A stretch of 64,000 nt of DNA, taken from positions 496,001 through 560,000 of the forward strand of contig NZ_KE386571.1 of assembly GCF_000427645.1 (NCBI RefSeq), read 5' to 3'. Source of the stretch: Sphingomonas phyllosphaerae FA2. Lineage in GTDB: Bacteria > Pseudomonadota > Alphaproteobacteria > Sphingomonadales > Sphingomonadaceae. Each line of letters opens with the position of its first letter. Positions within the stretch are counted from its first letter, which is position 1. This document shows positions 30,040-46,313 of this stretch, in pieces. The position numbers and the translations under genes were made by a program. The notes under the pieces are model-generated. The model was not told the origin of the DNA. It saw only the letters and a program-made list of their open reading frames with translations, and made no database searches.

Positions 30040-30179
30040 ATTCACAATCTTGCCGCGTAAATTTCATGCAACCGGACCCGTACGATCTTCGCAAGACGTG
30101 ATCTCCCGCTTCCCGCGGATGCTCGAAAAGCCTAAGTAGTTGAAAGGACGCGGCACCGCGCACGTCTCAACTTTGCACA

Positions 30180-30240
30180 TGTCACGCAACCGTAACGCTT
30201 GCGTCACGCAAACGTCGCTGAAATCGCATTCAGCTGTCAT
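30180..30240 (+). promoter_or_regulatory. Candidate Pho box array (11-bp-spaced repeats)
   Basis: Pentamers recur exactly every 11 bases: GTCAC (30181), GTAAC (30192), GTCAC (30203), GTCGC (30214), CGCAT (30225, weak) and GTCAT (30236, within CTGTCAT). PhoB binds direct repeats of TGTCA-type heptamers with 11-bp periodicity, so this reads as an extended Pho box. It lies 100-160 bases upstream of the beta-helix lipoprotein gene and TonB receptor, consistent with induction under phosphate starvation. The periodicity is seen directly; the PhoB assignment is inference. Confidence 0.6.
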
Positions 30241-30340
30241 CCTCACCGACTAGCGGCGCTTTCGACGATCGAGCGGACAGTCAGGTCCGACTCGGATCGG
30301 GGCCTTGGCAAAGGGTCCGAATCTCGAAGGGAGTGAGTTC

Positions 30341-32002
30341 ATGGTCAGCTTCAGCCGCCGCAGCCACATGCTGCTGGCATCCAGTGCCGCCCTGTTCCTG
30401 GCATCGTGCGGTGCGGACGATGTGGCGTCGCCAGGCGCTGGCAGCATTCCGATCACGATCAACCAGCCGGCGCCGACTCCCACGCCGACCGGTACCGCGA
30501 CGCCGACCCCGCTGACCGCCGCGCAGTTCGCGCTCGCCACGACCCAGTCGGGCGTCACGATCACCGCCGACGAGCAGGTTGCGCTGGTCAACGCCGGACA
30601 GAACAACAATCTGAACGGCTTCGGCACGACGCTGAACGGCGTCTATCCGGTCAGCGGCACCTCGCTGGCCATCGCCAGCAACCCGCAGACGGTGCTGGGC
30701 AACACCGCCTTCCTTCAGAACACCAGCTTCGTCGGCGCGCTCAGCGGTCCGAACGACAACAGCTTCTCGGGCTGGACCTGCAATTCGTCGAGCGCGACCT
30801 TCCTGAACAGCGGATCGTGCACCGCGGTGCCGTCGATCGGCACCGGCACCCCGGCGGCGTCCTGCCCGACCGGTCTGACCGACGATGGCACCAACGAAAT
30901 TCGCAACAGCGCGGGCACGGTCACGACCGCCGGCACGTTCCGCTATTGCCGCCTGCCGCAGCTCATCACCGCCGACCTGACGCTCGCGAAGATCCCTGGT
31001 CTGGTCTATCGTTTCCGCGGGCAGACCGAAGTGGGCGTAGACGGCACGTCGGCCACCACGCTGACGATCCAGCCCGGCGTCGTGCTGGCGGCGGATTCGA
31101 CCGAGACGTCGAACGATCTGATCCTCGTCAACCGCGGCAGCAAGCTGAACGCGGTCGGCACCGCCGACGCGCCGATCATCTTCACCGCGCAGCAGAACCT
31201 CGTGAATAACGGCGTGTCGGACTCGTCGCAGGGCCTGTGGGGCGGCGTCGTGCTGCTCGGCCGCGCGCCGACCGCGGTCTGCGCCACCGGCACGGGCCCG
31301 AACGACGCTAACGGTTCGTCGACGACCTGCCAGCAGGCGATCGAGGGCGTGACCGGCCGCTTCTACGGTGGTTCGAACCAGGCCGACAGCTCGGGCACGT
31401 TGCAGTACGTGCAGATCCGCTACACCGGCATCGCGATCAGCGAAGGCAACGAACTGCAGGGCCTCACGCTCGGCGGCACCGGTTCGGGCACAACGATCGA
31501 TCACGTCCAGAGCCACAATTCGGCGGATGACGGCATCGAGATCTTCGGTGGCGCGACCAACCTGAAGTATTTCGTGGTCACCGGCGCCGACGACGACGGC
31601 TTCGACGTCGACAACGGCTGGCGCGGGTTCATGCAGTTCATCATCGCGGCGCAGAAGGCCGGCGGCTCGACCGCCGACTCCTTCGCGACCGAGATCGACT
31701 CGAACGGCCAGGAAGACGCGCTGCCGCGCACCTACGGCCGCTACGCCAATTTCACCTTCGTCCAGACGAACTCGGCCCCGGCCGCGATCCGCCTGCGCGG
31801 CGGTGCGGACTTCGCCTTCGTCAACGGCATCGTGAAGACCCAGTCGGGCGCGGCCTGCCTCAACGTCATCGCGGGCAACGCGGTGAACGGGGCTGCTGCG
31901 ACCGGCAACGACCGCTCCACGATCCGCTCGGCGGACAGTGCGCTGCAGGACGTCGGCCCGCCGACCTTCAACTCGATCTACTTCCAGTGCCAGGGCCGCT
32001 GA
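30341..32002 (+). CDS. Surface/periplasmic lipoprotein, beta-helix type
   Basis: 553-aa lipoprotein. The lipobox LFLASC places the lipidated Cys near residue 24. A Pro/Thr linker (APTPTPTGTATPTPL) follows, then a long Gly/Asn/Thr-rich domain with repeating hydrophobic-Gly-Asn strands (LTLGGTGSGTTIDHVQSHNS, DDGIEIFGGATNLKYFVVTG, DDDGFDVDNGW), the pattern of right-handed parallel beta-helices. Acidic DDD turns could bind metal. GAAGGGAG precedes the ATG. It is followed by a TonB-dependent receptor, with a hairpin between. Proteins of this kind commonly accompany such receptors in sphingomonads; the ligand is unknown. Confidence 0.82.
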   Translation: MVSFSRRSHMLLASSAALFLASCGADDVASPGAGSIPITINQPAPTPTPTGTATPTPLTAAQFALATTQSGVTITADEQVALVNAGQNNNLNGFGTTLNGVYPVSGTSLAIASNPQTVLGNTAFLQNTSFVGALSGPNDNSFSGWTCNSSSATFLNSGSCTAVPSIGTGTPAASCPTGLTDDGTNEIRNSAGTVTTAGTFRYCRLPQLITADLTLAKIPGLVYRFRGQTEVGVDGTSATTLTIQPGVVLAADSTETSNDLILVNRGSKLNAVGTADAPIIFTAQQNLVNNGVSDSSQGLWGGVVLLGRAPTAVCATGTGPNDANGSSTTCQQAIEGVTGRFYGGSNQADSSGTLQYVQIRYTGIAISEGNELQGLTLGGTGSGTTIDHVQSHNSADDGIEIFGGATNLKYFVVTGADDDGFDVDNGWRGFMQFIIAAQKAGGSTADSFATEIDSNGQEDALPRTYGRYANFTFVQTNSAPAAIRLRGGADFAFVNGIVKTQSGAACLNVIAGNAVNGAAATGNDRSTIRSADSALQDVGPPTFNSIYFQCQGR

Positions 32003-32096: not shown

Positions 32097-34919
32097 ATGC
32101 GCCAGCGCACCCTTGCTTCGCTTCTTCTCCTGACGACCACGCTGGTCGCCCCCGCGGCGCTTGCGCAGGTCGCTCCGGCTCCGTCGGCGCCCGCCGGTCC
32201 GCCGCAAACCAGCACGACGTCACCCGGCCAGGCCCCCGCGCCGGAGCAGCAGGCGCAGGCGACGCAGGACGCAGTGCCGGGTGCCGCTGATGATCAGGCC
32301 GAGATTTCCGCCCCCGGCGTCGACGCCAGCACCGCCGGCGACATCGTCGTCGTCGGGCGCAACATTCCGAATGCGGTTCGCGCCACCGCGCAGGTCGTCA
32401 ACGTGCTGTCGACCGCCGACATCGCGCGGACGGGCGAGGGCGACATCGCCGGCGCGCTGACGCGCGTCACCGGCCTGTCGGTGGTCGGCAACGGCTATGT
32501 CTTCGTCCGTGGTCTGGGCGATCGCTATTCGTCGGCGCTGCTCAACGGCTCGCCGCTGCCCAGCCCCGAGCCGCTGCGCCGCACCGTTCCGCTCGACATC
32601 TTCCCGACGACGGTCGTCGGCTCGGCGCTCGTCCAGAAGACCTATTCGGTGAACTATCCCGGCGAGTTCGGCGGCGGCGTCATCAACCTGACGACCAAGG
32701 CGATCCCGGACGAGAATTTCTTCACCGTCGGCGCCTCGGGCGGGATCGATACCGAGACGACCGGCCGGCTCGGCTACACCTATTTCGGCTCGAAGACCGA
32801 CTGGCTCGGCTATGACGGCGGCGAGCGCAACGTCCCCGATTTCATCAAGCAGGCGCCGGCCGGCAACGGCGTGATCCCGGGCGCGCAGGTGCTTCAGTTG
32901 TCGAACGCGCGCACGACGCTCCTTCAGCGCAACAGCGACATTCCGGCGAATTATTCGGGCAGCCTCGATCTCGGCGTCACCGGCGATATCGGTGGCGCGC
33001 GCGTCGGCCTGATCGGCAGCGTCGGCGTGTCGAACAACTGGCGCACCCGCGACGCGGTGCAGCAGGATACCGTCAGTGACGACGGCACGATCCGCAACGA
33101 TTTCGACACCGTCATCACCGACAATCGCGCGGTGGTGAACGGCCTGCTCGGCTTCGGGCTGGAATTCGGCGAGAACAAGGTCCGCTGGACCAACGTCTAC
33201 ATCCACGACACGCTCAAGCAGGGGCGTGCGTCGGCGGCGACCGTCTACAACAATTCCAGCGGCAACCCGCTGTTCCAGCAGAACACGAGCTGGTTCGAGC
33301 GCAAGCTGATCGAAACGCAGCTGGTCGGCGAGTTCAAGCCGCTTGAGGATCTGTCGATCGACGTGCGCGGCGCCTATGCCAATTCGCAGCGCAACTCGCC
33401 GTACGAGCGGCAGTTCATCTATCTCTGCAACACCTCGCTCAACACCAACCTGAGCAACGCGCCGGTATCCGACACCGGGGTGAGCTGCCCGGGCGTGTGG
33501 CAGGCGACCAACGCCTTCGACCGGTTCGCGACGGTGGTGTTCAGCGAGCTGAACGAGAACCTGTATTCGGGGCAGGCGGACGTCGCCTACAAGTTCGCGG
33601 GCGATCGCCCGATGACGCTGTCCGCGGGCTATTATTATTCGGAGAACGAGCGCACCTCGACGCGTCTTCCCTTCGTCTATCAAACCGCGGTGGGCGGGGC
33701 GATCCCGTTCCCGTGCAACCTGTTCCGCCCCGATTACCTGTTGTCGCCCGATGTGGTGAACGGCTGCCCGGTGCCCGGCGCGGGCAACGCGTCCGACACC
33801 GCGGTGCAGATGCGCTTCGACGCCGGCCAGAACGGCTCCTACGCCTATGACGCGCTGCTGCGCGTCCACGCCGGCTATGTGCAGGCCGAGGCCGAGGCGT
33901 TCGATGGCGTCCGCGCGATCGTCGGCGTCCGCTACGAAACCGCGACGCAGCGCGTCACCCCGATCAACGCCACCGGCACGCGCCTGAAGAACGATTATTT
34001 CCTGCCCGGCGCGACGCTGACGTGGAACTTCGCGCAGGACATGCAGTTGCGCCTCGCCGCATCGAAGACGATTGCGCGCCCGCAGTTCCGCGAATTGGCC
34101 CCGCAGGCGTTCCGCGACTTCGAATCCGACCGCCTGTTCTTCGGCAACCCGCGCCTCAAGGACTCGGAACTCTACAATCTCGAGGCGCGCTACGAATGGT
34201 TCTTCGCGCGTGACCAGCGGATCACGCTGGCGGGCTTCTACAAGCGGATCGACAATCCGATCGAGCAGGTCGGCTTCTTCCCGACCCCCGACGCGCGGCT
34301 CCAGACCGGCTTCACCAACCTGCCGCGCGCCAGGCTGTACGGCGCGGAGATCGAGGCGCAGAAGTACATCCCGCTCGACTTCATCTCCGAGGGCATGGCG
34401 GGCAAGCGCGCGGTCGTGATCGCCAACTACACCTGGACGCATTCGGCGCTAAGCGCGGACAAGACCTGCGTTCCCGGCGTGCTGGAAGGAACGACGCTCG
34501 GCGGCTGTCAGCCGAATTTCGCCCCCGCCGCCAGCCTGTTCCGCGACGGCGCACCGCTCACCGGCCAGTCCGACCACCTCGTCAACCTTCAGCTCGGCTA
34601 TGAGGACAAGGACAACGGCACGCAGGCGACATTGCTGTTCAACTACGCCAGCGAGCGCGTGACCAACCGCGGCCCGTCGCTGCTGGGCGGTGCCGGCTTC
34701 CAGCCCGACATCATCGAACGGCCCGGCATCCGCCTCGACTTCGTCGCGCGCCAGACGGTCGATTTCATGAGCAAGAAGGTCGAGATCAAGGCCGAGATGC
34801 GCAACCTGACCGGCACGCGCTATCAGGAATTCCAGACCTTCGACGGCGGCAATCGCGTCGACATCAACCGCTATCGCCTCGGCCGCCTGTTCACGCTGGG
34901 GGCGAGCGTGACGTTCTGA
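32097..34919 (+). CDS. TonB-dependent outer-membrane receptor
   Basis: 940-aa receptor. The signal peptide ends PAALAQ, a Pro/Ala/Gln-rich linker follows, and then a TonB-box-like DIVVVGRNI. The plug domain spans roughly residues 90-215 (TGEGDIAGALTRVTGLSVVG, then RGLGDRYSSALLNGSPLP). The remaining 720 residues form the 22-strand barrel ending in the expected aromatic residue (GASVTF). Large extracellular loops contain paired Cys (FIYLCNTSLN to VSCPGVW; FPCNLF to NGCPVP). The substrate is unknown. The shared Pho-type promoter suggests phosphate or phosphorylated compounds. Confidence 0.92.
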   Translation: MRQRTLASLLLLTTTLVAPAALAQVAPAPSAPAGPPQTSTTSPGQAPAPEQQAQATQDAVPGAADDQAEISAPGVDASTAGDIVVVGRNIPNAVRATAQVVNVLSTADIARTGEGDIAGALTRVTGLSVVGNGYVFVRGLGDRYSSALLNGSPLPSPEPLRRTVPLDIFPTTVVGSALVQKTYSVNYPGEFGGGVINLTTKAIPDENFFTVGASGGIDTETTGRLGYTYFGSKTDWLGYDGGERNVPDFIKQAPAGNGVIPGAQVLQLSNARTTLLQRNSDIPANYSGSLDLGVTGDIGGARVGLIGSVGVSNNWRTRDAVQQDTVSDDGTIRNDFDTVITDNRAVVNGLLGFGLEFGENKVRWTNVYIHDTLKQGRASAATVYNNSSGNPLFQQNTSWFERKLIETQLVGEFKPLEDLSIDVRGAYANSQRNSPYERQFIYLCNTSLNTNLSNAPVSDTGVSCPGVWQATNAFDRFATVVFSELNENLYSGQADVAYKFAGDRPMTLSAGYYYSENERTSTRLPFVYQTAVGGAIPFPCNLFRPDYLLSPDVVNGCPVPGAGNASDTAVQMRFDAGQNGSYAYDALLRVHAGYVQAEAEAFDGVRAIVGVRYETATQRVTPINATGTRLKNDYFLPGATLTWNFAQDMQLRLAASKTIARPQFRELAPQAFRDFESDRLFFGNPRLKDSELYNLEARYEWFFARDQRITLAGFYKRIDNPIEQVGFFPTPDARLQTGFTNLPRARLYGAEIEAQKYIPLDFISEGMAGKRAVVIANYTWTHSALSADKTCVPGVLEGTTLGGCQPNFAPAASLFRDGAPLTGQSDHLVNLQLGYEDKDNGTQATLLFNYASERVTNRGPSLLGGAGFQPDIIERPGIRLDFVARQTVDFMSKKVEIKAEMRNLTGTRYQEFQTFDGGNRVDINRYRLGRLFTLGASVTF

Positions 34920-35046: not shown

Positions 35047-35676
35047 TCACCAGCCCCACGGACGCTCGCGATACCACTTGGTGACGATATATTTGGTGCC
35101 GGCGCGCACCTTCATCCCGTGGTGGATCGTCGCCGGGTTGAGCGTCCCGTCGGGGCGACAATTGTTCCAGCAGACCAGCTTGCCCAGTTCGGGCTGGATC
35201 GTCTTGTCGACCGCCTTGAAGCGGGTCGCGCCGCCTGCCTCGGGTTCGTTGAGATAGATCATCGCGGTCCAGGTGCGATTGCCCGCCACGCTGCAATAGC
35301 GGTCGAAGTCGGCGCCGTTCGGCTCGAAGTAATCGGTATGCGCCTTGAATTCCTGCCCGACCGCATAGCGTTGCCCCTGGATCGGCTCGCCATGCAGCGG
35401 ATCAAGCCCGGTCGCCGCCGCCAGCGCCGCGTCCACCTGCGCCACCACCGGGTCGGTCGCGGGCAGGTCGCAGGTTTCGCTGGTGCGGAACGCGGTGTCG
35501 CCGTTCGCGTCGGCGATCGTCGACGGTCGCCGGCCGATATCGATCAGCTCGACCAGATAGGCGCACGTCTCGGGCGAGAGAAACGCGCGTTTGGTGAACA
35601 ACGTCAGCTTGGGGCTGGGCAGGCGCTGGAAGCCGGACTGGGCGGAAAGCCGGGCGGCGATCGGATCGGTGGCCAT
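35047..35676 (-). CDS. 2OG-Fe(II) oxygenase, prolyl 4-hydroxylase type
   Basis: 209-aa dioxygenase of the P4Hc class. The iron ligands are visible as HTDYFEPNG (His and Asp) and the distal His in NPATIHHGMKVRAGTKYIVT, with the 2-oxoglutarate-binding Lys/Arg region after it (KYIVTKWYRE). RYAVGQEFKAHTDYF and WTAMIYLNEPEAGGATRF are typical of the core. Substrate may be a protein prolyl residue or a small molecule. It is divergent from gspC across a 117-base gap that holds an AT-rich inverted repeat. Confidence 0.87.
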   Translation of the reverse strand: MATDPIAARLSAQSGFQRLPSPKLTLFTKRAFLSPETCAYLVELIDIGRRPSTIADANGDTAFRTSETCDLPATDPVVAQVDAALAAATGLDPLHGEPIQGQRYAVGQEFKAHTDYFEPNGADFDRYCSVAGNRTWTAMIYLNEPEAGGATRFKAVDKTIQPELGKLVCWNNCRPDGTLNPATIHHGMKVRAGTKYIVTKWYRERPWGW

Positions 35677-35720: not shown

Positions 35721-35753
35721 ATATTACACAAACTCGCAATACCCACGTAATAT
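35721..35753. promoter_or_regulatory. AT-rich inverted repeat upstream of the T2SS operon
   Basis: ATATTAC (35721-35727) and GTAATAT (35747-35753) are perfect inverted arms separated by 19 bases, in an AT-rich patch within a GC-rich genome. The centre-to-centre distance of 26 bases suits a dimeric or tetrameric regulator. It lies between the divergent oxygenase and gspC, and could control either. No regulator is assigned. Confidence 0.5.
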
Positions 35754-35793
35754 GGTTTACCTAGCGGCCGTTCGCGGGGAGTTGGCCAGGCCG

Positions 35794-36687
35794 ATGCGTT
35801 TGAAGTTCGATGCCCGTGCACGGGCGATCCTGCGGCGGCTGCCCGTGGTAAATGTCTATTCCGCGGCGGAATTGGTATTGCTTGCGGCGCTGGCGGTGCA
35901 ATGCGCGCGGCTGGCGTGGGTGTTGTTGACCCCGGTCGCGCCGCTCGGGGCATGGACCCCCGCCGGGCCGACCGTCCCCGCCGATGCCGCGGGCGTGCTG
36001 GCAGGCTTCGATCCTTTCTACCGTGTCAGCGGCGCGGCGCAGGCGCAGGGGCCGACCGCGGTTACCTCGCTCCAGCTCACGCTCTACGGCACGCGCATGG
36101 ACAGCGCGCAGGCGCGCGGCGCGGCGATCATCGCCGGGCCGGACGGCGTCCAGAAGAGCGTCGCGGTGGGTGAGGAGGTCGCCCCCGGCGTCACGCTCAA
36201 GTCGGTCGCCTTCGATCATGTCACGCTCGATCGCGGCGGCCGCAGCGAGGATCTGTTCCTCGACCAGTCGGGCAGCAGTGGCGGCACCGTCACCGCCCCC
36301 GGCAACGATCCGGCGCAGAACCCGCCGCCCGAGGCGCCGCCCGGCGCACGCGGGCTCGCCGCCCGGCTTGAGATACCCAGCGGCGGGACGATCCCGGCCG
36401 GCACCCCGACCGTCTCGCCACAGCAATTGCGTCAGGAGATCAACGCGATCCCACGGATCGACGGCGGCAAGGTCACTGGCGTCACCGTGCGTGGGCAGGG
36501 GGGCGCGGCGTTCCGCGCCGCCGGGCTGCGCGACGGCGACGTCATCACCACGGTCGCGGGCCGCCCGATCACCGGCCCGTCCGATCTCGAAATGCTCACC
36601 CGCGCGCGCGCGTCGGGCGGCACCCTGTCCCTCACGGTGGAGCGCGCCGGACAGCCGCTGCCGCTCACCATTCCGGTAGCTCGATGA
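35794..36687 (+). CDS. gspC: Type II secretion system protein C
   Basis: 297-aa inner-membrane protein that links the outer-membrane secretin to the cytoplasmic assembly. One transmembrane segment (AAELVLLAALAVQCARLAWV) is followed by the homology region (VTSLQLTLYGTRMDSAQARG). The C-terminal PDZ domain (IDGGKVTGVTVRGQGGAAF, then LRDGDVITTVAGRPITGPSD) recognises substrates or GspD. A Pro-rich linker joins the two. The ATG at 35794 is chosen; an earlier ATG at 35752 lies inside an inverted repeat. The stop overlaps gspD (ATGA). Confidence 0.9.
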   Translation: MRLKFDARARAILRRLPVVNVYSAAELVLLAALAVQCARLAWVLLTPVAPLGAWTPAGPTVPADAAGVLAGFDPFYRVSGAAQAQGPTAVTSLQLTLYGTRMDSAQARGAAIIAGPDGVQKSVAVGEEVAPGVTLKSVAFDHVTLDRGGRSEDLFLDQSGSSGGTVTAPGNDPAQNPPPEAPPGARGLAARLEIPSGGTIPAGTPTVSPQQLRQEINAIPRIDGGKVTGVTVRGQGGAAFRAAGLRDGDVITTVAGRPITGPSDLEMLTRARASGGTLSLTVERAGQPLPLTIPVAR

Positions 36688-38900
36688 ACCGCACCGCCAC
36701 TTTCCTGTCGCCGCTCGTCCTCCTCGCCGCGGCGCAGCCCGCGCTCGCGCAGACCACGCTCAACGTCCGCGATGCGGACATTCGCGCGTTCATCGCCGAT
36801 GCCGCTAAGGTCACCGGGCGCACCTTCATCATCGACAATCGCGTGCAGGGCAAAGTGACCGTCGTCACCGATCGCCCGCTGTCGCGCAGCGAATATCTGG
36901 AGGTGTTCCTCTCCACGCTGCGCGCCAACGCGCTCATCGCGGTGCCGACCGCCAATGGCGCGTTCCGCGTCCAGCCGATCGACAATGCCGCCAGTCAGCC
37001 GGGGCGGATCGGGCTCGCCGGGTCACAGCGCAACCAGCTCGTCACCGAGATCATCCGGTTGCGCTCGGTCGACGCCGCGCAGGCGGTCGACACCGTCCGC
37101 CCGCTGGTCAGCGCGCAAGGGTCCGTCACCGCCAATCGCGGCGGCAACAGCCTCGTCGTCGTCGATTTCGCCGACAACGTCCGCCGTGTCCGCGAAGTGG
37201 TGCGACGGATCGACGCCGACACGTCGGCGACGCGGATCATCGCGCTCAAGAACGCGCGCGCCAGCGAGGTCGCGACCGCGCTGACCGGTTTGCTCGGCGG
37301 CGGCGCACAGGGCGGCGCAGCGGCGGCGACCGGCGGCGCCTCGGCGGTCGCGATCGAGAGCAGCAACGCGGTGGCGCTGCGCGGCGACCCGCAGACCGTC
37401 GCGAGGCTCGCCGGGCTGGCGCGCGAACTCGACCAGAGCGCACGCAACGCCACCGAAATTCGCGTCGTGTTCCTCGAAAACGCCGACGCCAATCAATTGC
37501 TGCCGGTCCTCCAGCAGCTCGTCGGTCAGGCCCCCGATGCGGTGCAGGAACAGGGACTCAGCCGCACCGGGCTAAGCACGTCGAGCACCGGTTCGACCGG
37601 CGTCGGCGCGACTCCGCAGCCTGCGACGCGCAGCCAGTCGCAGCAGACCGCCACGCAAGCGTCGGGCAGCCAGCCCCAACAGGCCGCGATCCGCGGCGAG
37701 GGCGCGCGCACCGCAGCGGTCGTCACCCGCTATGCCGGCGCGAACGCGATCGTCGTCGCCGCCCCGGCCGACGTTCAGCGCCAGCTGGCGGAGGTGATCC
37801 GCAAGCTCGACCAGCGCCGCCAGCAGGTGCTGGTCGAGGCGATCGTCGCCGAAGTGTCGGACAGCACCGTCAACCGGCTCGGCGCGCAATTCCTGCTCGG
37901 CAACATCGACGGCGGCGCGTTCGCCGCCTCGACGTTCAGCAATTCCGCGCCGAACATCCTCCAGATCGCGGGCGCGGTCGGCGCGCAGTCGCTGGGGTCG
38001 ACGCGCACCGTCGTCACCGCCGCTGATGGCACCCGCACCGAAACCACGACCAACAACACCGCGTCGAACACGCTGACCCAGTCGGCGATCAATTCGATCA
38101 TCGGCTCGCAGGGCGGGTTCGGTGGCTTCGGCGGCAAGATCGGCAGCACGATCTTCGGCGCGATCATCAATGCGGTGAAGAGCGATACGCAGTCCAACCT
38201 GCTGCAAGTCCCGCAGATCATGACGCTCGACAATCAGGAGGCGCATACCCTGGTCGGGCAGGAAATCCCGATCACCACTGGCGAGGCGCTGTCGAACAAT
38301 TTCGACAATGCCTTCCGCACCACGCAGCGCCAGAACGTCGGCATCGGGCTCGACGTCCGCCCGCAGGTCAATTCGTCGGGCACGATCAAGATGAACCTCC
38401 ATCTGGAGGTCAGCTCGATCGCCGGCCCGGTCAGCAGCAACAATTCCGACCTGATCCTCAACAAGCGTGAGGTCGAGACGGTGCTGACCGTCGACGATGG
38501 CGCGATCGGCGTTATAGGCGGGCTGCTTTCCGACGAAGAGCGGCGCACGATCGAGAAGATCCCGTTCCTCGGCGACATTCCGGTGCTCGGCAATCTGTTC
38601 AAAAGCCGTGCGAAGACCCGCGCCAAGTCGAACCTGATGATCTTCATCCGCCCGACCGTGATCCGCTCGGCGGAGGAGAACCGCCGCGTCACCGAGCGTC
38701 GCTACGGCTATCTGCGGCTCCAGCAGGGGTTGCAGGACCCCGCCGCCGAGCCCTCGATCGACGAACTGGTCCGCGACTATATGGGCGCGACCCCGCCGCT
38801 CCCGCCGGCCGGCGAGCCGGGTAGCATCGAGGATCCGCGCATCGGCGTGCCGGTGCAACGCAACTCCACCACCGTCATCAGCGGAGCCAGGCGCAAATGA
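36684..38900 (+). CDS. gspD: Type II secretion system secretin GspD
   Basis: 738-aa outer-membrane secretin. The signal peptide ends PALAQ. The N0 domain starts TTLNVRDADIRAFIADAAKV, N1-N3 domains with Gly/Ser/Gln-rich insertions follow, and the secretin core contains VPQIMTLDNQEAHTLVGQEI and VETVLTVDDGAIGVIGGLLS. The C-terminal LFKSRAKTRAKSNLMIFIRP precedes a ~75-residue tail that may bind a pilotin. No gspS is visible. It overlaps gspC and gspE by four bases each. Confidence 0.95.
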   Translation: MNRTATFLSPLVLLAAAQPALAQTTLNVRDADIRAFIADAAKVTGRTFIIDNRVQGKVTVVTDRPLSRSEYLEVFLSTLRANALIAVPTANGAFRVQPIDNAASQPGRIGLAGSQRNQLVTEIIRLRSVDAAQAVDTVRPLVSAQGSVTANRGGNSLVVVDFADNVRRVREVVRRIDADTSATRIIALKNARASEVATALTGLLGGGAQGGAAAATGGASAVAIESSNAVALRGDPQTVARLAGLARELDQSARNATEIRVVFLENADANQLLPVLQQLVGQAPDAVQEQGLSRTGLSTSSTGSTGVGATPQPATRSQSQQTATQASGSQPQQAAIRGEGARTAAVVTRYAGANAIVVAAPADVQRQLAEVIRKLDQRRQQVLVEAIVAEVSDSTVNRLGAQFLLGNIDGGAFAASTFSNSAPNILQIAGAVGAQSLGSTRTVVTAADGTRTETTTNNTASNTLTQSAINSIIGSQGGFGGFGGKIGSTIFGAIINAVKSDTQSNLLQVPQIMTLDNQEAHTLVGQEIPITTGEALSNNFDNAFRTTQRQNVGIGLDVRPQVNSSGTIKMNLHLEVSSIAGPVSSNNSDLILNKREVETVLTVDDGAIGVIGGLLSDEERRTIEKIPFLGDIPVLGNLFKSRAKTRAKSNLMIFIRPTVIRSAEENRRVTERRYGYLRLQQGLQDPAAEPSIDELVRDYMGATPPLPPAGEPGSIEDPRIGVPVQRNSTTVISGARRK

Positions 38901-40477
38901 TCCTGCGCACCGGAGCGGAGATCGACGCAGCCGCCGCGCCGCTGCCGCCCGCACCGGACGGCGCGACGGTGCTGGGCGAGGCGGTGCCGGTCGTCCCGCC
39001 GCTCGCCTTGCCCTATGCGTTCGCGCGTAAATTCGGCGTCGTCCTCGATGGGGACGGCGTCGCGCTGCGCGAGGGCAGCGACCCGCGCGCGTTGATCGAG
39101 GTGCGGCGCGTGCTCGGCCGCGCGTTCGATGTCGCGGTGGTCGCGCCCGCTGCGTTCGACCGGCTGCTCGGCGAGAATTACGCGATGGACGGGCAGGCGA
39201 CCGCCGCCGCCGCCGTCGGCATGGGCGACGAACTCGACCTGCTCGCGGAGGGCTTGCCGACCGCCGAGGATCTGCTCGACACCGCCGACGACGCGCCCGC
39301 GATCCGGCTCATCAACGGCATCATCGCCGATGCCGCGCGCAACGGCGTGTCGGATATTCATATCGAGCCCTATGAAACCGGGCTGGTCGTGCGGATGCGT
39401 ATCGACGGCGTGCTGCGCGAGACGCTGCGGATGCCGCCGCACGTCGCCCCGGTCGTGGTCAGCCGTATCAAGGTGATGGCGCGGCTCGACATCGCCGAGC
39501 GGCGCGTGCCGCAGGACGGGCGCATGGGGCTGACGCTCGGCGGCAAGCTGCTCGACGTCCGCGTCTCGACCTTGCCAAGCCGCGCGGGCGAGCGTGTCGT
39601 CCTGCGTATTCTCGACAAGGAGAATGCCGGCATCGACCTCGACGCGCTCGGGATGAGCGCGCCGATGTATGCGCTGCTGCGCGATGCGATCGCGGAGCCG
39701 AACGGCATCGTGCTGGTGACCGGGCCGACCGGTAGCGGCAAGACGACCACGCTCTACGCCGCGCTGCGGTTGTTGAACGACGGCAGCCGCAACATCCTGA
39801 CCGTCGAGGACCCGGTCGAATATGCGGTTGAGGGTGTCGGCCAGACGCAGGTCAACGCCAAGGTCGGACTGACCTTCGCCGCGGGGCTCCGCGCCATTCT
39901 GCGGCAGGACCCCGACGTGGTGATGATCGGCGAAATCCGCGACCGTGAGACCGCCGAGATCGCGGTGCAGGCGTCGCTGACCGGCCACCTCGTGCTGTCG
40001 ACCGTCCACACCAACGACGCGGTCGGCGCAATCACGCGGATGCGCGACATGAAGGTCGAATCGTTCCTGCTCGCCTCGACGCTGCGCGCGGTCATCGCCC
40101 AGCGGTTGGTGCGCCGCCTGTGCAAACATTGCGCGCGCCCGGTGCCAGCATCGGAGACGGTCGCGCCGCTGCTCGGGATCGATCCGGCGACGACCGTCTA
40201 CGAGGCGGTAGGGTGCGAGAATTGCAACCGAACCGGCTTCCGCGGCCGGATCGGCGTCTACGAGGCGGTCCGCGTCGACGCGACCGTCCGCCGCCTGATC
40301 AACGAGGGCGGCGACGAAGATGCCATCGCGCGCCACACCTTCGCCAACAACGACACGCTCGCCACCGCCGCGCGGCGGCTGGTGGAAAGCGGCCAGACCA
40401 CGGCGGAAGAAGCGATTCGCGTCTCCCGCAGCGAAAACGCCGACACCGCCGAAGCCGCGATCGCCGATGCGCACTGA
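38897..40477 (+). CDS. gspE: Type II secretion system ATPase GspE
   Basis: 526-aa cytoplasmic motor. The N-terminal domain binds GspL. Walker A GPTGSGKTTTLYAALR, the Asp box (ILTVEDPVEYAVEGVGQTQV), Walker B (ILRQDPDVVMIGEIRDRETA) and the His box (HLVLSTVHTNDAVGAITRM) are all intact. The tetracysteine zinc module is RLCKHCARP and CENCNRTGF. The ATG overlaps gspD. It ends 137 bases before gspF, the only sizeable gap in the operon, which holds an inverted repeat. Confidence 0.95.
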   Translation: MILRTGAEIDAAAAPLPPAPDGATVLGEAVPVVPPLALPYAFARKFGVVLDGDGVALREGSDPRALIEVRRVLGRAFDVAVVAPAAFDRLLGENYAMDGQATAAAAVGMGDELDLLAEGLPTAEDLLDTADDAPAIRLINGIIADAARNGVSDIHIEPYETGLVVRMRIDGVLRETLRMPPHVAPVVVSRIKVMARLDIAERRVPQDGRMGLTLGGKLLDVRVSTLPSRAGERVVLRILDKENAGIDLDALGMSAPMYALLRDAIAEPNGIVLVTGPTGSGKTTTLYAALRLLNDGSRNILTVEDPVEYAVEGVGQTQVNAKVGLTFAAGLRAILRQDPDVVMIGEIRDRETAEIAVQASLTGHLVLSTVHTNDAVGAITRMRDMKVESFLLASTLRAVIAQRLVRRLCKHCARPVPASETVAPLLGIDPATTVYEAVGCENCNRTGFRGRIGVYEAVRVDATVRRLINEGGDEDAIARHTFANNDTLATAARRLVESGQTTAEEAIRVSRSENADTAEAAIADAH

Positions 40478-40487
40478 ACGCCATTTT

Positions 40488-40604
40488 CCGTTCGTTTCGA
40501 GCAGCATCGAGCGCAGTCGAGATGCGTCTGTCGAGAAGTGTGGGGCCACAGTCTTCTCGACCCCGGGTCTCGACTTCGCTCGACCCTCGGCTCGAAGCGA
40601 ACGG
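40488..40604. repeat. Inverted repeat inserted between gspE and gspF
   Basis: The outer arms CCGTTCGTTTCGAGC (40488-40502) and GCTCGAAGCGAACGG (40590-40604) match except for one position. Inner arms (GAGCGCAGTCGAGA with TCTCGACTTCGCTC, then GTCGAGAAGTGTGG with CCACAGTCTTCTCGAC) fold as nested hairpins. It is a dispersed intergenic element related in style to 7733-7837. It ends ten bases before the gspF start. Confidence 0.82.
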
Positions 40605-40614
40605 CTTATTTCCA

Positions 40615-41838
40615 ATGGCTGACTTCGACTATATCGCGATCGACACCCGCGGCAACGAGACGCGCGGCCATGTGAGCGCCACCGACATGGACGCCGCGCG
40701 CGCCGCGCTCGATCGCAAGCGTCTGTACGTCGTCCGCATCGAGCCCGGCAGCACCCCGCAGGCGCGCAGCCGCCCGCTGTTCGGCCTCGAACTCGGCCGC
40801 GCGAAGATGTCGGGCAAGCAATTGACCTTGTTTACCCGCCAGTTGGCGACGCTCAATCGCGTTTCGCCGCTGGAGGAATCGCTCCGCACGATCACCCGCC
40901 AGACCGAGCAGGAAAGCGTCCGCGCGATCGTCCAGACCGTCCATACCGCGGTCGTCGAGGGGCGCCGGCTCGCCGATGCGATGGCGCGCGAGCCGAAGAG
41001 CTTTCCGCCGCTCTACCGCGCGATGGTCGCGGCGGGCGAGAGCTCCGGCACGCTGCCGCAGATCATGGAGCGGCTGTCGACCCTGCTCGAACGACAGGCA
41101 GAAATCCGCGGCAAGTTGCTGACCGCGATGGCCTATCCCTCGGTGCTCGCCGCGGTCGCGCTCGGCGTGGTGCTCGCGCTGATGACCTTCGTCGTCCCGC
41201 AGGTGGTCGAGCAATTCGATACCGTCGGTCAGGAACTTCCGCTGCTCACCCGGCTCGTGATCGGCCTGTCGGCGGTGCTGGTCGGCTGGTGGTGGCTGAT
41301 GCTGCTGGTGCTCGTCGCGCTGGGGTTCGGGGCATGGGCCGCGCTGCGTCAGCCGCCGATCCGGCTGGCTTTCGATAGCTGGCTGCTGCGCGTGCCGCTG
41401 CTTGGGCGGCTGCTCCGCGACCTCCACGCCGCGCGGATGGCGCGGACGCTGTCGACGATGGTCGCCAGCCGTCTCCCGCTTCTGGAAGGGCTTAGCCTCA
41501 CTGCCGGCACGATCCACAACCGCCGGCTGAAGGCGGCATCGGACGAGATCACCGAATCGATTCGCGGCGGCGGCAGCCTTTCGGCGGCAATGCGTCGCGC
41601 CGGAGTCTTCCCGCCATTGCTCGTCTATCTCGCCGCCAGCGGCGAGGCGGCGGGGCGGCTCGACGAGATGCTGGAGCGCGCCGCCGACTATCTGGAGCGC
41701 GAGTTCGACCGCTTCACCGCCACCGCGATGTCGCTGCTCGAACCGCTCATCATCGTCATCATGGGCGCGATCGTCGCGACGATCGTGCTATCGATCCTGC
41801 TCCCCATCCTTCAGCTCAACACGCTGGCCGGACAATGA
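40615..41838 (+). CDS. gspF: Type II secretion system inner-membrane protein GspF
   Basis: 407-aa polytopic platform protein. The duplicated GspF domain is clear: FTRQLATLNRVSPLEESLRT in the first copy and ARMARTLSTMVASRLPLLEG in the second. Three hydrophobic segments lie at about residues 172-196, 220-250 and 375-400 (LLEPLIIVIMGAIVATIVLS). The start ATG (MADFDYIAID) is close after the repeat at 40488-40604 and lacks a strong RBS. The stop overlaps gspG (ATGA). Confidence 0.93.
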   Translation: MADFDYIAIDTRGNETRGHVSATDMDAARAALDRKRLYVVRIEPGSTPQARSRPLFGLELGRAKMSGKQLTLFTRQLATLNRVSPLEESLRTITRQTEQESVRAIVQTVHTAVVEGRRLADAMAREPKSFPPLYRAMVAAGESSGTLPQIMERLSTLLERQAEIRGKLLTAMAYPSVLAAVALGVVLALMTFVVPQVVEQFDTVGQELPLLTRLVIGLSAVLVGWWWLMLLVLVALGFGAWAALRQPPIRLAFDSWLLRVPLLGRLLRDLHAARMARTLSTMVASRLPLLEGLSLTAGTIHNRRLKAASDEITESIRGGGSLSAAMRRAGVFPPLLVYLAASGEAAGRLDEMLERAADYLEREFDRFTATAMSLLEPLIIVIMGAIVATIVLSILLPILQLNTLAGQ

Positions 41839-42284
41839 GAATGCCTATGTCGACTGAGAAGAAGCCCCGGAAGAAGCGCAACGGGTTCACGCTGGTGGAA
41901 CTGATGGTGGTGATCGTCATCATCGGCCTGCTGGCGACGATCGTCGCGCTCAACGTGCTGCCCTCGGGCGACACCGCGCGGATCCAGAAGGCGAAGGCTG
42001 ATATCGCGACGATCGAGCAGGGCCTCGAACTCTACCGGCTGCAGATGGGCAACTACCCGACAACGACGCAAGGGTTGCAGGCGTTGGTCACCCCGCCGGC
42101 CGGGGCGGACGCCGCGCGCTATCAGGCCGGCGGCTATATCAAGCGCTTGCCGCAGGACCCGTGGAGCCGTCCGTACCTCTACGCCTCGCCCGGTCAGCAT
42201 GGCGCGGCGGATGTCTGGACGCTGGGCGCCGACGGCAAGGACGGCGGGCAGGGGATCGATGCCGATATCGGGTCCTGGCAGTAA
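41835..42284 (+). CDS. gspG: Type II secretion system major pseudopilin GspG
   Basis: 149-aa pseudopilin. The type III signal peptide KKRNG is cleaved before FTLVELMVVIVIIGLLATIV, with Glu at +5. The variable domain has GNYPTTTQGLQALVTPP and the C-terminal LGADGKDGGQGIDADIGSW segment that coordinates calcium in this family. Four of the first residues may be skipped if MSTEKKPRK is the real start. Overlaps gspF by four bases. Confidence 0.94.
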   Translation: MRMPMSTEKKPRKKRNGFTLVELMVVIVIIGLLATIVALNVLPSGDTARIQKAKADIATIEQGLELYRLQMGNYPTTTQGLQALVTPPAGADAARYQAGGYIKRLPQDPWSRPYLYASPGQHGAADVWTLGADGKDGGQGIDADIGSWQ

Positions 42285-42726
42285 CGCGGCCCGGGGCCAC
42301 CAGCGCGGTTTCACGCTGATCGAGCTGATGGTGGTCATCACCGTCATCGGGCTCGCCTCGGCGGCGGCGGTGCTGATGATGCCCGACACGCGCGGCCGGC
42401 TGATGGACGAGGCGACGCGCTTCGCGGTGCGCACTCGCGCCGCGCACGACGCCGCGATCGTCGAGGCGCGCCCGGTCAGCCTGTGGGTGACGCCCGGGGG
42501 CTATGGCTTCGACCAATGGCGCGGCGGCGCGTGGACGCCGCTCGACGGCGCATTGAAGGTCGAGCGCTGGAAACCGGGCACCGCGACCACCGGCCCGGCG
42601 CGCGACCGGCTGACCTTCGACACCACCGGGCTCGCCGATCGCGCGATGACCGTGACGCTGACGCGCGAGGGGATGCGCACCGATGTGGTGATCGACGCCG
42701 ACGGGACCGTCCGTGTCGCCGGCTGA
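42259..42726 (+). CDS. gspH: Type II secretion system minor pseudopilin GspH
   Basis: 155-aa minor pseudopilin. The prepilin cleavage site HQRG precedes FTLIELMVVITVIGLASAAA. The beta-rich C-terminal half (VSLWVTPGGYGFDQWRGGAW) fits GspH. The ATG used (MPISGPGSN) gives a 26-base overlap with gspG; the leader is long at ~24 residues. The 3' end overlaps gspI by 14 bases. Confidence 0.88.
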   Translation: MPISGPGSNAARGHQRGFTLIELMVVITVIGLASAAAVLMMPDTRGRLMDEATRFAVRTRAAHDAAIVEARPVSLWVTPGGYGFDQWRGGAWTPLDGALKVERWKPGTATTGPARDRLTFDTTGLADRAMTVTLTREGMRTDVVIDADGTVRVAG

Positions 42727-43114
42727 CCCGCCCGCGCGCGGGTTCACCCTCGTCGAGATCATGGTCGCGCTGGTCGTGTTCAGCCTCGCCGCGCTCGCGC
42801 TGATCCGGCTGGAGGGGCAGACGATCCGCTCGACCGGCTTCGTGTCGTCGGCGCTGCTCGCGCAGATCGTGGCGCGCAACGTCGCGATCGAGGCGGTCAC
42901 CGATGCACAGCCGCCGACGCGCGGGCGCGCCAGCGGCGTCGAGCAGGCCGGCGGACGCACCTGGACGTGGGTGCGCGATACGCAGCCGCTCGGCGACGGC
43001 GATGTTCAGCGGATCGACGTCGCGGTCAGCGATGCGGGCGGCGCGGTGATGGGCCGCGCGACGATGGTCCGCCCGCCGCCTGCGCCGATCGCACAGACGC
43101 GGGTCGGGCCGTGA
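42713..43114 (+). CDS. gspI: Type II secretion system minor pseudopilin GspI
   Basis: 133-aa minor pseudopilin starting with GTG inside gspH. The leader PPARG is cleaved before FTLVEIMVALVVFSLAALAL. The conserved region LARNVAIEAVTD-like (LLAQIVARNVAIEA) and the C-terminal strand follow. It initiates the pseudopilus tip together with GspJ and GspK. The stop overlaps the GTG of gspJ. Confidence 0.9.
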   Translation: MSPADPPARGFTLVEIMVALVVFSLAALALIRLEGQTIRSTGFVSSALLAQIVARNVAIEAVTDAQPPTRGRASGVEQAGGRTWTWVRDTQPLGDGDVQRIDVAVSDAGGAVMGRATMVRPPPAPIAQTRVGP

Positions 43115-43803
43115 CGCGCCGGACGACGCACGACGCGGGCTTCACGCTCGTCGAGGTGATGATCGCGTTGATGATCTTCGGGATGATCGCCGCCGCGGGG
43201 GTCGCGTTGCTGGCGTTCAGCGTCCGCGCGCAGGGGGCGACCGGCGCCGCGCTCGACGACAATGCCGCGCTCAACCGGCTCGTGTCGATCATGACCGCCG
43301 ACATGGCGCAGGCGCAGGATCGTCCAACCCGCGACGCCGCGGGCACGCTGTTCCCCGCCTTCTCGGGCGACCGCAGCGCGCAGCCGATCCTGCGCTTCGT
43401 CCGCGGCGGCTGGGCCAACCCCGATCAGGCCCCGCGCGCGACCGTGCAGAAGGTCGAATATCGCCTGACCGCCGATGGGATCGAGCGCGTCGCCTATCCC
43501 GCGCTCGACGGCGCCGCGCCGCTGCCCGCGGCGTTGCTGGTCGACCGCGTGCAGGAAGTGCGCGTCCGCTTCCGCTACGCCGGGGCGTGGAGCGACACAT
43601 GGCAGGGCGACGAGCGCGCGTCCTTGCCGCAGGCGATGGAACTGACGCTGGTGCGCGCGGGCGGGCAGTCGTACCGGCTGCTGTTCCTCGTCGGCACCGG
43701 CGCACCGCGCACGCTCGACGACGTCAACAACGGGCAGCTGGGCCCCGGCTCGGGCGGTGCCCCGGCCGCTACTCCGACAGGCACGGCGAATGCGGCGCGC
43801 TAG
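43111..43803 (+). CDS. gspJ: Type II secretion system minor pseudopilin GspJ
   Basis: 230-aa minor pseudopilin. The leader TTHDAG precedes FTLVEVMIALMIFGMIAAAG. Family features are DMAQAQDRPTRD and the beta-strand RVQEVRVRFRYAG, WSDTW, with PQAMELTLVRAGG. The C-terminal ~20 residues are Gly/Ala/Thr-rich. The GTG start overlaps gspI (GTGA), and the end overlaps gspK by 14 bases. Confidence 0.91.
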   Translation: MTRRTTHDAGFTLVEVMIALMIFGMIAAAGVALLAFSVRAQGATGAALDDNAALNRLVSIMTADMAQAQDRPTRDAAGTLFPAFSGDRSAQPILRFVRGGWANPDQAPRATVQKVEYRLTADGIERVAYPALDGAAPLPAALLVDRVQEVRVRFRYAGAWSDTWQGDERASLPQAMELTLVRAGGQSYRLLFLVGTGAPRTLDDVNNGQLGPGSGGAPAATPTGTANAAR

Positions 43804-44758
43804 GCCGGGCGAGCGCGGGGCCGCGCTGCTGACCGTGCTGCTGCTCGTAGCCGTCATCGCGGTCATGGCCGCCACCGCGCTGGAGCGCTTGCGGCTGTCG
43901 ACGCGACTCGCCGCCAATGCTGTCGCGCTTGATGCTGCGCGCGGTTACGCCTATGCCGCCGAGACGCTGGCGACGCGCCGCGTCTCGACGCTTCTGCAAC
44001 AGAGCCGCGACCGCGTCGCGCTGACCGGCGGGTGGAGCGGACGGCCGTTCGGCCTGCCGATCCCCGGCGGCACCGCGACCGCGCGGGTCACCGATGGCGG
44101 CAATTGCTTCAACCTCAACGGGCTGGTCACCTTCGGCTTCGGCGACGCCTATCTCGTCAACCCGCAGGCGCTGACGCGTTTCCAGCGGCTGTTGCGACTG
44201 CTGCGCGTGCCGGACGGCGATGCGATCGCGGTGGCGACCGCCGACTGGCTCGACAGCGACGACGATCCGCTGCCCGGCGGCGCGGAGAACAGCGCCTATC
44301 GCGGCTATCGCACCGCCGGCACGTTGATGGCCGATGTCAGCGAGTTGCGTGCGGTAAAGGGCGTCACGCCCGAGGCGTACAAGCTGATCCAGCCGTGGGT
44401 GTGCACCCTGCCCATCGCGCGGCAATCGGTGCTCAACGTCAATACCTTGCTCCCCGAGCAGGCGCCGCTGCTCGCGATGCTGCTGCCCGACACGATGGGG
44501 GTCGCGCAGGCGCAGGGTCTGCTGCTGCGCCGCCCGCCCGGCGGTTATGCGCAGGCCGGACAATTCTGGGCGCAACTGGCCAGCGCGGGCGGCGCGACCG
44601 ACATCGGCGCGCAATCGCAGACCGGCGTGACGACCAAATGGTTCGCGCTGCGCATCGATGTGGTCAATGGCGGCGCGGAATTGCATGAGGAAGGGCTGAT
44701 CGACGCGCGGACTCTTCCCGTCCGGCTCGTGACGCGGCAATGGGGGGATGTACCATGA
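43790..44758 (+). CDS. gspK: Type II secretion system minor pseudopilin GspK
   Basis: 322-aa largest minor pseudopilin. The leader ARPGERG precedes AALLTVLLLVAVIAVMAATA; GspK lacks the +5 Glu, as expected. FNLNGLV and LDSDDDPLPGGAENSAYRGY (acidic metal site) are family marks, as is the helix-hairpin-helix-like LRAVKGVTPEAYKLIQPWV and LNVNTLLPEQAPLLAML. It caps the pseudopilus tip. The start codon lies in the gspJ end. Confidence 0.92.
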   Translation: MRRARPGERGAALLTVLLLVAVIAVMAATALERLRLSTRLAANAVALDAARGYAYAAETLATRRVSTLLQQSRDRVALTGGWSGRPFGLPIPGGTATARVTDGGNCFNLNGLVTFGFGDAYLVNPQALTRFQRLLRLLRVPDGDAIAVATADWLDSDDDPLPGGAENSAYRGYRTAGTLMADVSELRAVKGVTPEAYKLIQPWVCTLPIARQSVLNVNTLLPEQAPLLAMLLPDTMGVAQAQGLLLRRPPGGYAQAGQFWAQLASAGGATDIGAQSQTGVTTKWFALRIDVVNGGAELHEEGLIDARTLPVRLVTRQWGDVP

Positions 44759-45843
44759 CCGCTGCGACGCTCCTCTTCCTGCCTCCCGACGATTCGCAGC
44801 CGTGGCGCTGGTGGCGGATCCGCGACGACGCGGTCGAGCGCGAGGGCGAGGGGATGCCCGAGGTGACGGCGGAGGACCGCGTCGTCGCGGTCGCGCCGGC
44901 CGATGCGGTGACGCTGCACTGGGCGACGCTGCCCGCGCGTTCACCGGCGCAGGCATTGGCGGCGGCGCGCGTCGTGGTCAGCGACGCCACCGCCGAGCCG
45001 GCGCATGACCTGCATGTCGCGGTCGGGCGCGAACGCGACGGCGAGCGCGCGATCGCGGTCGTCGCGCCGGCGCGGATGGCGGCGTGGCTCGCGGCACTGG
45101 CGCGCGGCGGGGTTGATCCGGCCGCGGTCGTCCCCGCGCCGTTGCTGCTGCCTGAGCCCGAGGAAGGCTATGTCCGCGCCGACCTGGGCGGGCAGGTGGT
45201 GGCGCGCGGTCGCACGACCGGCTGGGCCGACGAGCCGGTGCTCACCGGGCTGGTGACCCGCGGCGAAACTCCGCGGCTGCTCGACCGCGCCGCACTGCGT
45301 GCCGCCGCGATCGAGGCGGTCGCCGAGCCGGTCATCGACCTGCGGCAAGGCGCGTTCGCGCGTCGCCGCCGGCGTACCGCGATCGACTGGGCGCTGGTGC
45401 GGCGGCTGGCGGTGCTCGCCGGGCTGATCCTGCTGGCGACGCTCGCGATCGATGTCGTGCGGATCATGCGCTATTCGTTCGGCGCGGACGCGATCGAGCA
45501 GCGCGCCGCGACGATCGCGCGGCAGGGTTTGCCGCGCGGCACCGGCGAAGGTGACGAAACGCGAATGCTCGGCGAGCGGCTGTCGGCGCTGCGCGGGCCG
45601 GGGCAGGGCTTCACCCGCACCGCGGCGGCGGTCTACGCGATCGTGGAGGCGGTGCCCGATACGGAGATCACCGCGTTGCAGTTCGAGCCGAACGGCGCGT
45701 TGCGCATTTCGCTGTCGCTGGCGGGCGAGGCGCAGGCGAATACGGTCAAGTCGCGGCTCGCCGACGCGGGTTTCACGGTCGAATCAAGCGTCTTCCAGCA
45801 ATCGGCCGGTCGCCTGACCGGCGACATGACGGTGCGGCCATGA
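44755..45843 (+). CDS. gspL: Type II secretion system protein L
   Basis: 362-aa bitopic protein. An actin-like cytoplasmic domain (residues 1-210) would recruit GspE, one membrane segment follows near residue 225 (LAVLAGLILLATLAIDVV), and the ferredoxin-like periplasmic domain (EAVPDTEITALQFEPNGALR) pairs with GspM. GGGGGGA lies six bases before the ATG. It overlaps gspK and gspM by four bases each. Confidence 0.9.
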   Translation: MTAATLLFLPPDDSQPWRWWRIRDDAVEREGEGMPEVTAEDRVVAVAPADAVTLHWATLPARSPAQALAAARVVVSDATAEPAHDLHVAVGRERDGERAIAVVAPARMAAWLAALARGGVDPAAVVPAPLLLPEPEEGYVRADLGGQVVARGRTTGWADEPVLTGLVTRGETPRLLDRAALRAAAIEAVAEPVIDLRQGAFARRRRRTAIDWALVRRLAVLAGLILLATLAIDVVRIMRYSFGADAIEQRAATIARQGLPRGTGEGDETRMLGERLSALRGPGQGFTRTAAAVYAIVEAVPDTEITALQFEPNGALRISLSLAGEAQANTVKSRLADAGFTVESSVFQQSAGRLTGDMTVRP

Positions 45844-46313
45844 CGGCGTTGAAGACATGGTTCGACGGACGCTCGCTGCGCGAACGGCGTTTGTTGCTGG
45901 TGATGGTCGCGCTGGCAGCGGTGACGCTGGTGTGGGGCGCGGTGATCCGCCCGGTCCGCGACGGGCTGTCGTCATCGCGTGAGCGCTATACCGACGCCGT
46001 GATCCGCCTCGGCACCGCGCAGGCCGGGCTGCGGCAGGTCAAGGCGTTGCAGCGCCGCGCGACCCCGCTGTCCGCGCCGCTCGCCGATGTCGTCCGCGCG
46101 CGCGCCGACGCCGCGGGGTTCACGCTCGCCAGCCTCGATGTCGAGGCGCCCGACCGCGTCCGCACCGCGATCGCCACCGCGCGCGCCGGCGCGTTGATGC
46201 CATGGATCAGCGGGCTGGAATCGGAGGGGATTCTGGTCGACTCGCTCAGCGTCTCCGGCAATGGCGCGGGCAGCGTCACCGCGACCATGACGCTCCGCGC
46301 GCGAGGGGTCTGA
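45840..46313 (+). CDS. gspM: Type II secretion system protein M
   Basis: 157-aa protein with a short cytoplasmic N-terminus, one transmembrane segment (LLLVMVALAAVTLVWGAVI) and a periplasmic domain. The segment WISGLESEGILVDSLSVSG is characteristic of GspM. Length is normal. It stabilises GspL in the inner-membrane platform. It overlaps gspL by four bases and gspN by one. Confidence 0.9.
   Translation: MTALKTWFDGRSLRERRLLLVMVALAAVTLVWGAVIRPVRDGLSSSRERYTDAVIRLGTAQAGLRQVKALQRRATPLSAPLADVVRARADAAGFTLASLDVEAPDRVRTAIATARAGALMPWISGLESEGILVDSLSVSGNGAGSVTATMTLRARGV

Follow-up and report, generated by a model that had tools for sequence, protein, structure and literature searches.

The Pho box of E. 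coli is described as two 11-nt direct repeats with the core CTGTCAT (PMC4415409), and at E. coli phoA the PhoB site lies over the -35 region (PMC3348028). In Caulobacter, phosphate starvation induces elpS (cc0170), a neighbor of cc0171 and the gsp genes, and overexpression of ElpS raises extracellular alkaline phosphatase activity (PMC2996285). By RT-PCR, cc0171 was constitutive in Caulobacter (PMC2996285), so the receptor gene need not follow elpS. It has also been reported that Caulobacter PhoB controls TonB receptors and that type II secretion is among the regulated categories (PMC11208175). The term "pho box" is absent from the main text of the Caulobacter elpS paper (PMC2996285). A literature search combining Sphingomonas and Pho box found no paper on a Sphingomonas Pho box, as judged by title.

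In this study, we analyzed a run of phased repeats in a 64-kb stretch of a Sphingomonas genome, referred to here as the window. The original prediction described GTCAC-like pentamers at 30181, 30192, 30203, 30214, 30225 (weak) and 30236, and the exact 11-bp register was read in the sequence as described. The lipoprotein and TonB receptor genes that it placed downstream were also found. The features are as follows, where rows are those of the alignment of 52 upstream regions (51 loci and the window).

30179 to 30240, plus strand: six-unit array of direct repeats at 11 bp, predicted PhoB operator (Pho boxes), from sequence, phasing, rarity and conservation
30181 to 30185, plus strand: unit 1, GTCAC; GTMAY exact in 47 of 52 rows
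30192 to 30196, plus strand: unit 2, GTAAC; GTMAY exact in 38 of 52 rows
30203 to 30207, plus strand: unit 3, GTCAC; GTMAY exact in 38 of 52 rows
30214 to 30218, plus strand: unit 4, GTCGC, weak and conserved; GTMAY exact in 1 of 52 rows, commonest form GTCTC
30225 to 30229, plus strand: unit 5, CGCAT, weak and conserved; GTMAY exact in 0 of 52 rows, commonest forms CTCAT and CGCAT
30236 to 30240, plus strand: unit 6, GTCAT; GTCAY in 52 of 52 rows
30251 to 30256, plus strand: TAGCGG, probable -10 element; TA exactly 10 nt past unit 6 in 52 of 52 rows
30341 to 32002, plus strand: elpS-like lipoprotein, 553 aa; LASC lipobox read by eye, named by synteny (PMC2996285) and lipobox
32097 to 34919, plus strand: TonB-dependent receptor in a cc0171-like position; Pfam plug and barrel above cut-off, NCBIfam TIGR01782 under its cut-off
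35047 to 35676, minus strand: 2OG-Fe(II) oxygenase-like protein (family-like match), between the receptor gene and gspC
35725 to 35751, plus strand: weaker trio TACAC-GCAAT-GTAAT at 11-bp spacing before gspC; 12 of 15 letters
35762 to 35767, plus strand: TAGCGG, possible -10 of the gsp genes, exactly 10 nt past the trio
35794 to 47032, plus strand: type II secretion genes gspC to N; gspD and gspE by Pfam, the rest named from ORF translations
36684 to 38900, plus strand: gspD, Pfam confirmed
38897 to 40477, plus strand: gspE, Pfam confirmed

An HU gene and a tRNA-Val lie upstream of the array. The elpS-like lipoprotein had no Pfam or NCBIfam match at E 0.001; it carries a lipobox, and its gene is a neighbor of the TonB-dependent receptor gene and the gsp genes. 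By synteny, the genes presumed to be controlled by the array resemble Caulobacter elpS-cc0171 beside the type II secretion genes. A doubled form of the lipoprotein is suggested in eight genomes of the order that belong to other families (G037, G040, G046, G047, G048, G052, G054 and G057), where its homolog gave two adjacent matches in open frames of 911-1006 residues; in G057, one of the two matches holds two stops.

The direct repeats of the array run head to tail at 11-bp intervals and have a TGTCA(T/C)-like core. When both strands of the window were scored against six copies of GTCAC at 11 bp, positions 30181-30240 formed the top site with 24 of 30 letters. The best score on the other strand was 19 of 30, and the maxima of 20 second-order Markov shuffles were 18-21. 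In a motif-free test, no other 55-bp segment of the window had as high a self-similarity at lag 11; lags other than 11 reach higher values elsewhere. The whole genome (G000, 3.92 Mb) was then scanned for the 11-bp-phased motif, as proposed with the original prediction. The exact trio GTMAY-N6-GTMAY-N6-GTMAY was found at only two places, the array and the junction between a histidine-kinase gene and a pstS-like gene, and the reversed control pattern had no occurrence in the same 3.92 Mb. With one mismatch allowed, the trio occurred at 12 places (two of them inside the array), compared to none for the control. The concern that the same phasing might arise at random elsewhere in the genome at a similar frequency was thus not borne out. 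The simple pair GTCAC-N6-GTCAC was present at 11 places in the genome, none within the array, so that the distinctive feature is the phased run. These results indicate that the array is far above chance.

We examined conservation in 53 loci obtained by a search with the lipoprotein, nearly all of them titled Sphingomonas. Both strands (691 kb) were scanned for six units at spacings of 6-20 with a threshold of at least 25 of 30 letters. This gave 65 six-unit matches, every one at spacing 11, on the coding strand and 138-393 bp before the start of the lipoprotein match. The array precedes the orthologous gene in 51 of the 53 loci, and the two loci lacking it (L090 and L091) have merely 14 and 2 bases before the match. 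No other six-unit array reached the threshold elsewhere in the 691 kb or at the 14 other spacings. Exact trios numbered 19 at spacing 11, 3 at spacing 15 and 0 at the 13 other spacings. In the 52 rows, mean information was 1.44 bits in the units, 0.46 in the linkers, 0.12 in the 60 bp upstream and 0.31 in the 60 bp downstream. The units and their phase have therefore been kept, while the intervening sequence drifts. The initial row placement gave credit for CCTAG and for the deviant forms of units 4 and 5. When GTMAY x6 alone was used as a neutral criterion, 51 of 52 rows kept their unique place and the unit counts did not change; the remaining row (L080) gave a three-way tie. It may be argued that the array is a chance repeat, or reflects common descent alone without any regulator, since the loci are related and the locus counts are not independent. 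We regard this as extremely improbable, because in the 27 rows that are less than 75% alike the units still hold 1.44 bits vs. 0.42 in the linkers, no six-unit array was seen elsewhere in the 691 kb, and the 11-bp phase is seen again before pstS-like genes and phoX.

The range of the array was examined by searching 25 genomes of the same genus both ways. A lipoprotein match was present in 23, and 21 of these 23 had the array profile in front; of the two exceptions, a contig end truncates the region in G006, and the lipoprotein match of G012 is weak. More distant lipoprotein homologs in seven genomes of other families (G037, G038, G040, G046, G047, G048 and G052) had no profile match in front, which makes the modelled array a possible trait of the genus. 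In 8 of the 52 rows (L074, L075, L076, L077, L078, L081, L083 and L086), an extra pair of units lies upstream of unit 1, joined by a 9-bp step instead of an 11-bp step, and in 1 of the 52 two further units follow at 11 bp.

Units 4 and 5 differ from the others, since they match the consensus exactly in only 1 and 0 of the 52 rows, compared to 47, 38, 38 and 52 for units 1, 2, 3 and 6. They prefer letters of their own, GTCTC in unit 4 and CTCAT or CGCAT in unit 5. The TA at exactly 10 nt after unit 6 appeared in every row, even when the placement contained no -10 term. The E. coli -10 is TATAAT, and that of the array promoter reads TAGCGG. The pattern G[TC][CA]A[CT]-N10-TA[GAT] was found in 50 of 52 elpS upstream regions, and the other gaps from 4 to 17 gave 1-5 each, save gap 7 with 24. 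A TA peak at gap 7 (24 of 52 for elpS, 16 of 30 for gspC and 24 of 30 for pstS) was set aside; by reasoning, it fits the TA contained in a GTAAC-type unit at the next step. None of the 52 elpS promoters had two consensus units ahead of N10-TA, because unit 5 is never consensus. The fixed 10-nt distance from unit 6 to TA would place the last PhoB copies over the -35 region. Cooperative and strong control by the array, as first proposed, is plausible from its layout. With units 4 and 5 conserved in a weak form, binding of PhoB may also be graded rather than simply stronger. Many E. coli PhoB sites are reported to be transcriptionally inert (PMC10294691), and PhoB might bind the array to repress, or might merely be held there. 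This seems very improbable to us, as the last unit stands at a fixed distance before a conserved TA, which fits an activator site, and the inert E. coli sites are described as mainly intragenic and little conserved (PMC10294691), unlike the Sphingomonas array.

We investigated whether the phased repeats are shared with phosphate genes. The second exact trio of the genome overlaps both the kinase frame, at its end, and the earliest start available to the pstS-like gene. This gene matches TIGR02136 with 125.1 bits (E 3.6e-36) against a curated cut-off of 206.6; the match is below the cut-off in all but one of the genomes that have one, and the name rests on the E-value and the neighbors. Among the pstS-like genes of 30 relatives, 19 promoters scored at least 13 of 15 letters at 11 bp and none did so at six other spacings (G000 scored 14), which leaves 11 of 30 below the trio threshold. 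The TA lay at gap 10 in 9 of these 30 promoters and at gap 14 in 7, so that the 10-nt rule is not clearly common to them. The phoX genes were found independently of the motif, and the best 18 of 28 rows were used. Fourteen of these 18 upstream regions, G000 included, scored at least 16 of 20 letters at 11 bp, which leaves 4 of the best 18 under the threshold. At spacing 13 one of the 18 reached it, and at seven other spacings none did. The phased repeats are thus common to the array, the genes named pstS-like below the cut-off, and phoX, in this genome and in relatives.

A profile built from 26 arrays was also run on 41 genomes with E up to 1. It gave 128 matches. Twenty-one of them, among which are the 20 strongest, stand in front of the lipoprotein homolog; because several of the searched genomes are the same records as rows of the model, these matches before elpS are not independent. 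For the other 107 weaker matches, coordinates place at least 10 ahead of PhoX and 6 ahead of pstS-like genes. For 18 of the 21 non-lipoprotein matches with E below 0.009, the downstream gene was PhoX in five cases, a TonB-dependent receptor in eight, a metallophosphoesterase in two, and a T2SS-E domain protein, a small TPR protein and nothing clear in one each. Genes for TonB-dependent receptors abound in such bacteria, and the -10 is part of the profile; the receptor matches therefore carry little weight. In 19 of the 23 genomes that have PhoX, it is represented by one match row, and the matches before it therefore count for much. Among 20 matched places examined, L174 has no clear target gene and L183 lies inside open frames. 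In L171, a frame with a receptor plug continues into unrelated sequence, as read by eye. Small TPR-protein genes stand behind phased GTMAY-like arrays at L184:2871-3218 (G000:C1 near 2579754, minus strand) and L179:2744-3097. Metallophosphoesterase genes (Pfam Metallophos) stand behind arrays at L177:2206-3177 and L178:245-1300; we assume that these may be PlcP-like and act in lipid remodelling during phosphate shortage. Three further profile matches in G000 are at C2:27752, C1:1576119 and C1:187467.

The genome encodes PhoB (334.6 bits, above the curated cut-off of 296.2) about 4 kb after the pstS-like gene on the same strand. PhoR was named from the position and translation of the adjacent kinase, and the genome thus holds PhoB over its cut-off, PhoR by translation and a Pst component whose PstS-like match is below its cut-off. 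A different OmpR-family regulator with direct repeats at 11-bp spacing, such as ChvI or CenR acting in envelope stress, was also considered. The products near the array are envelope proteins, and in G000 there are 13 further proteins whose matches to the PhoB model span almost all of it. The CenR motif TGA-N8-TGA is 11 bp from start to start as written, and is given as 10 in the paper (PMC9275681); the ChvI motif of S. meliloti is N-GCC-N8-GCC, with TTGC-N3-GCAA as another form of the ChvI site (PMC9731502). The conserved core of the array is GTMAY, not TGA or GCC, and neither the CenR site nor either form of the ChvI site was matched. ChvI and CenR were set aside because of this difference in core and because core and phase also mark the pstS-like genes and phoX, which better fits a phosphate regulator. 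We therefore consider such a regulator unlikely.

The PhoB reading of the original prediction gained support from the repeats before the pstS-like genes and phoX and from the rarity of the trio in the genome. In our judgement the array is very probably an extended Pho box, through which PhoB is predicted to activate the genes for the elpS-like surface lipoprotein and for the TonB-dependent receptor, an outer-membrane importer. When phosphate is scarce, PhoR would phosphorylate PhoB, and PhoB~P would load head-to-tail onto the 11-bp half-sites. The PhoB copies on the last units would then lie over the -35 region, 10 nt before the probable -10 (TAGCGG), and would recruit RNA polymerase there, so that the two genes would be transcribed together. 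Units 1-3 and 6 look strong and units 4 and 5 have been kept weak, and the sites are probably filled in order.

The same TAGCGG follows the weaker trio before gspC. We compared the gspC upstream regions of the window and 29 loci (n = 30). Seven scored at least 13 of 15 letters at spacing 11, the window reaching 12, and at eight other spacings none did so. A unit followed by N10-TA was present in 26 of 30, compared to 16 for gap 7 and no more than 7 for any other gap, and 16 of 30 had two units ahead of N10-TA. These results suggest that the secretion genes may answer to the same regulator as elpS, more weakly; this shorter array of the same layout probably ties them to the phosphate signal. 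Taken jointly, the operator would be a graded one with two of six half-sites held weak by selection, the second shorter array with the same 10-nt geometry would drive the type II secretion genes, and lipoprotein, importer and secretion machine would rise together at different phosphate thresholds. We put this combined proposal forward tentatively, at somewhat less than an even chance.

On the sequence evidence, the phosphate-starvation response appears to include elpS, its receptor gene and the secretion genes. For predicting such genes in this large genus of soil and plants, GTMAY at an 11-bp phase offers a ready motif, to which the elpS and gspC promoters add N10-TA. Six graded sites in about fifty natural variants are also a convenient system for relating the number and strength of half-sites to the response threshold.

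Compared with known systems, the array resembles the E. coli Pho box in its 11-bp head-to-tail units, its GTCAT/GTCAC core, its predicted position over the -35 region (as at phoA; PMC3348028) and its association with phosphate-scavenging genes. It differs from the two-unit E. coli box in having six units, frequent GTAAC and two units conserved in a non-consensus form. The greater length noted in the original prediction has precedents, since more than two 11-bp units at one promoter are known in E. coli ugp and in complex operators of Streptomyces (PMC4415409); unlike these, Sphingomonas keeps the order strong-strong-strong-weak-weak-strong genus-wide. As in the Caulobacter crescentus elpS (cc0170)-cc0171-gsp locus, genes for a lipobox lipoprotein, a TonB-dependent receptor and type II secretion adjoin, with a common theme of phosphate starvation (PMC2996285), whereas in the window the oxygenase gene on the opposite strand separates the receptor gene from gspC. 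The array is very probably a switch of a known kind, yet one of unusual length that some fifty species have strictly preserved.
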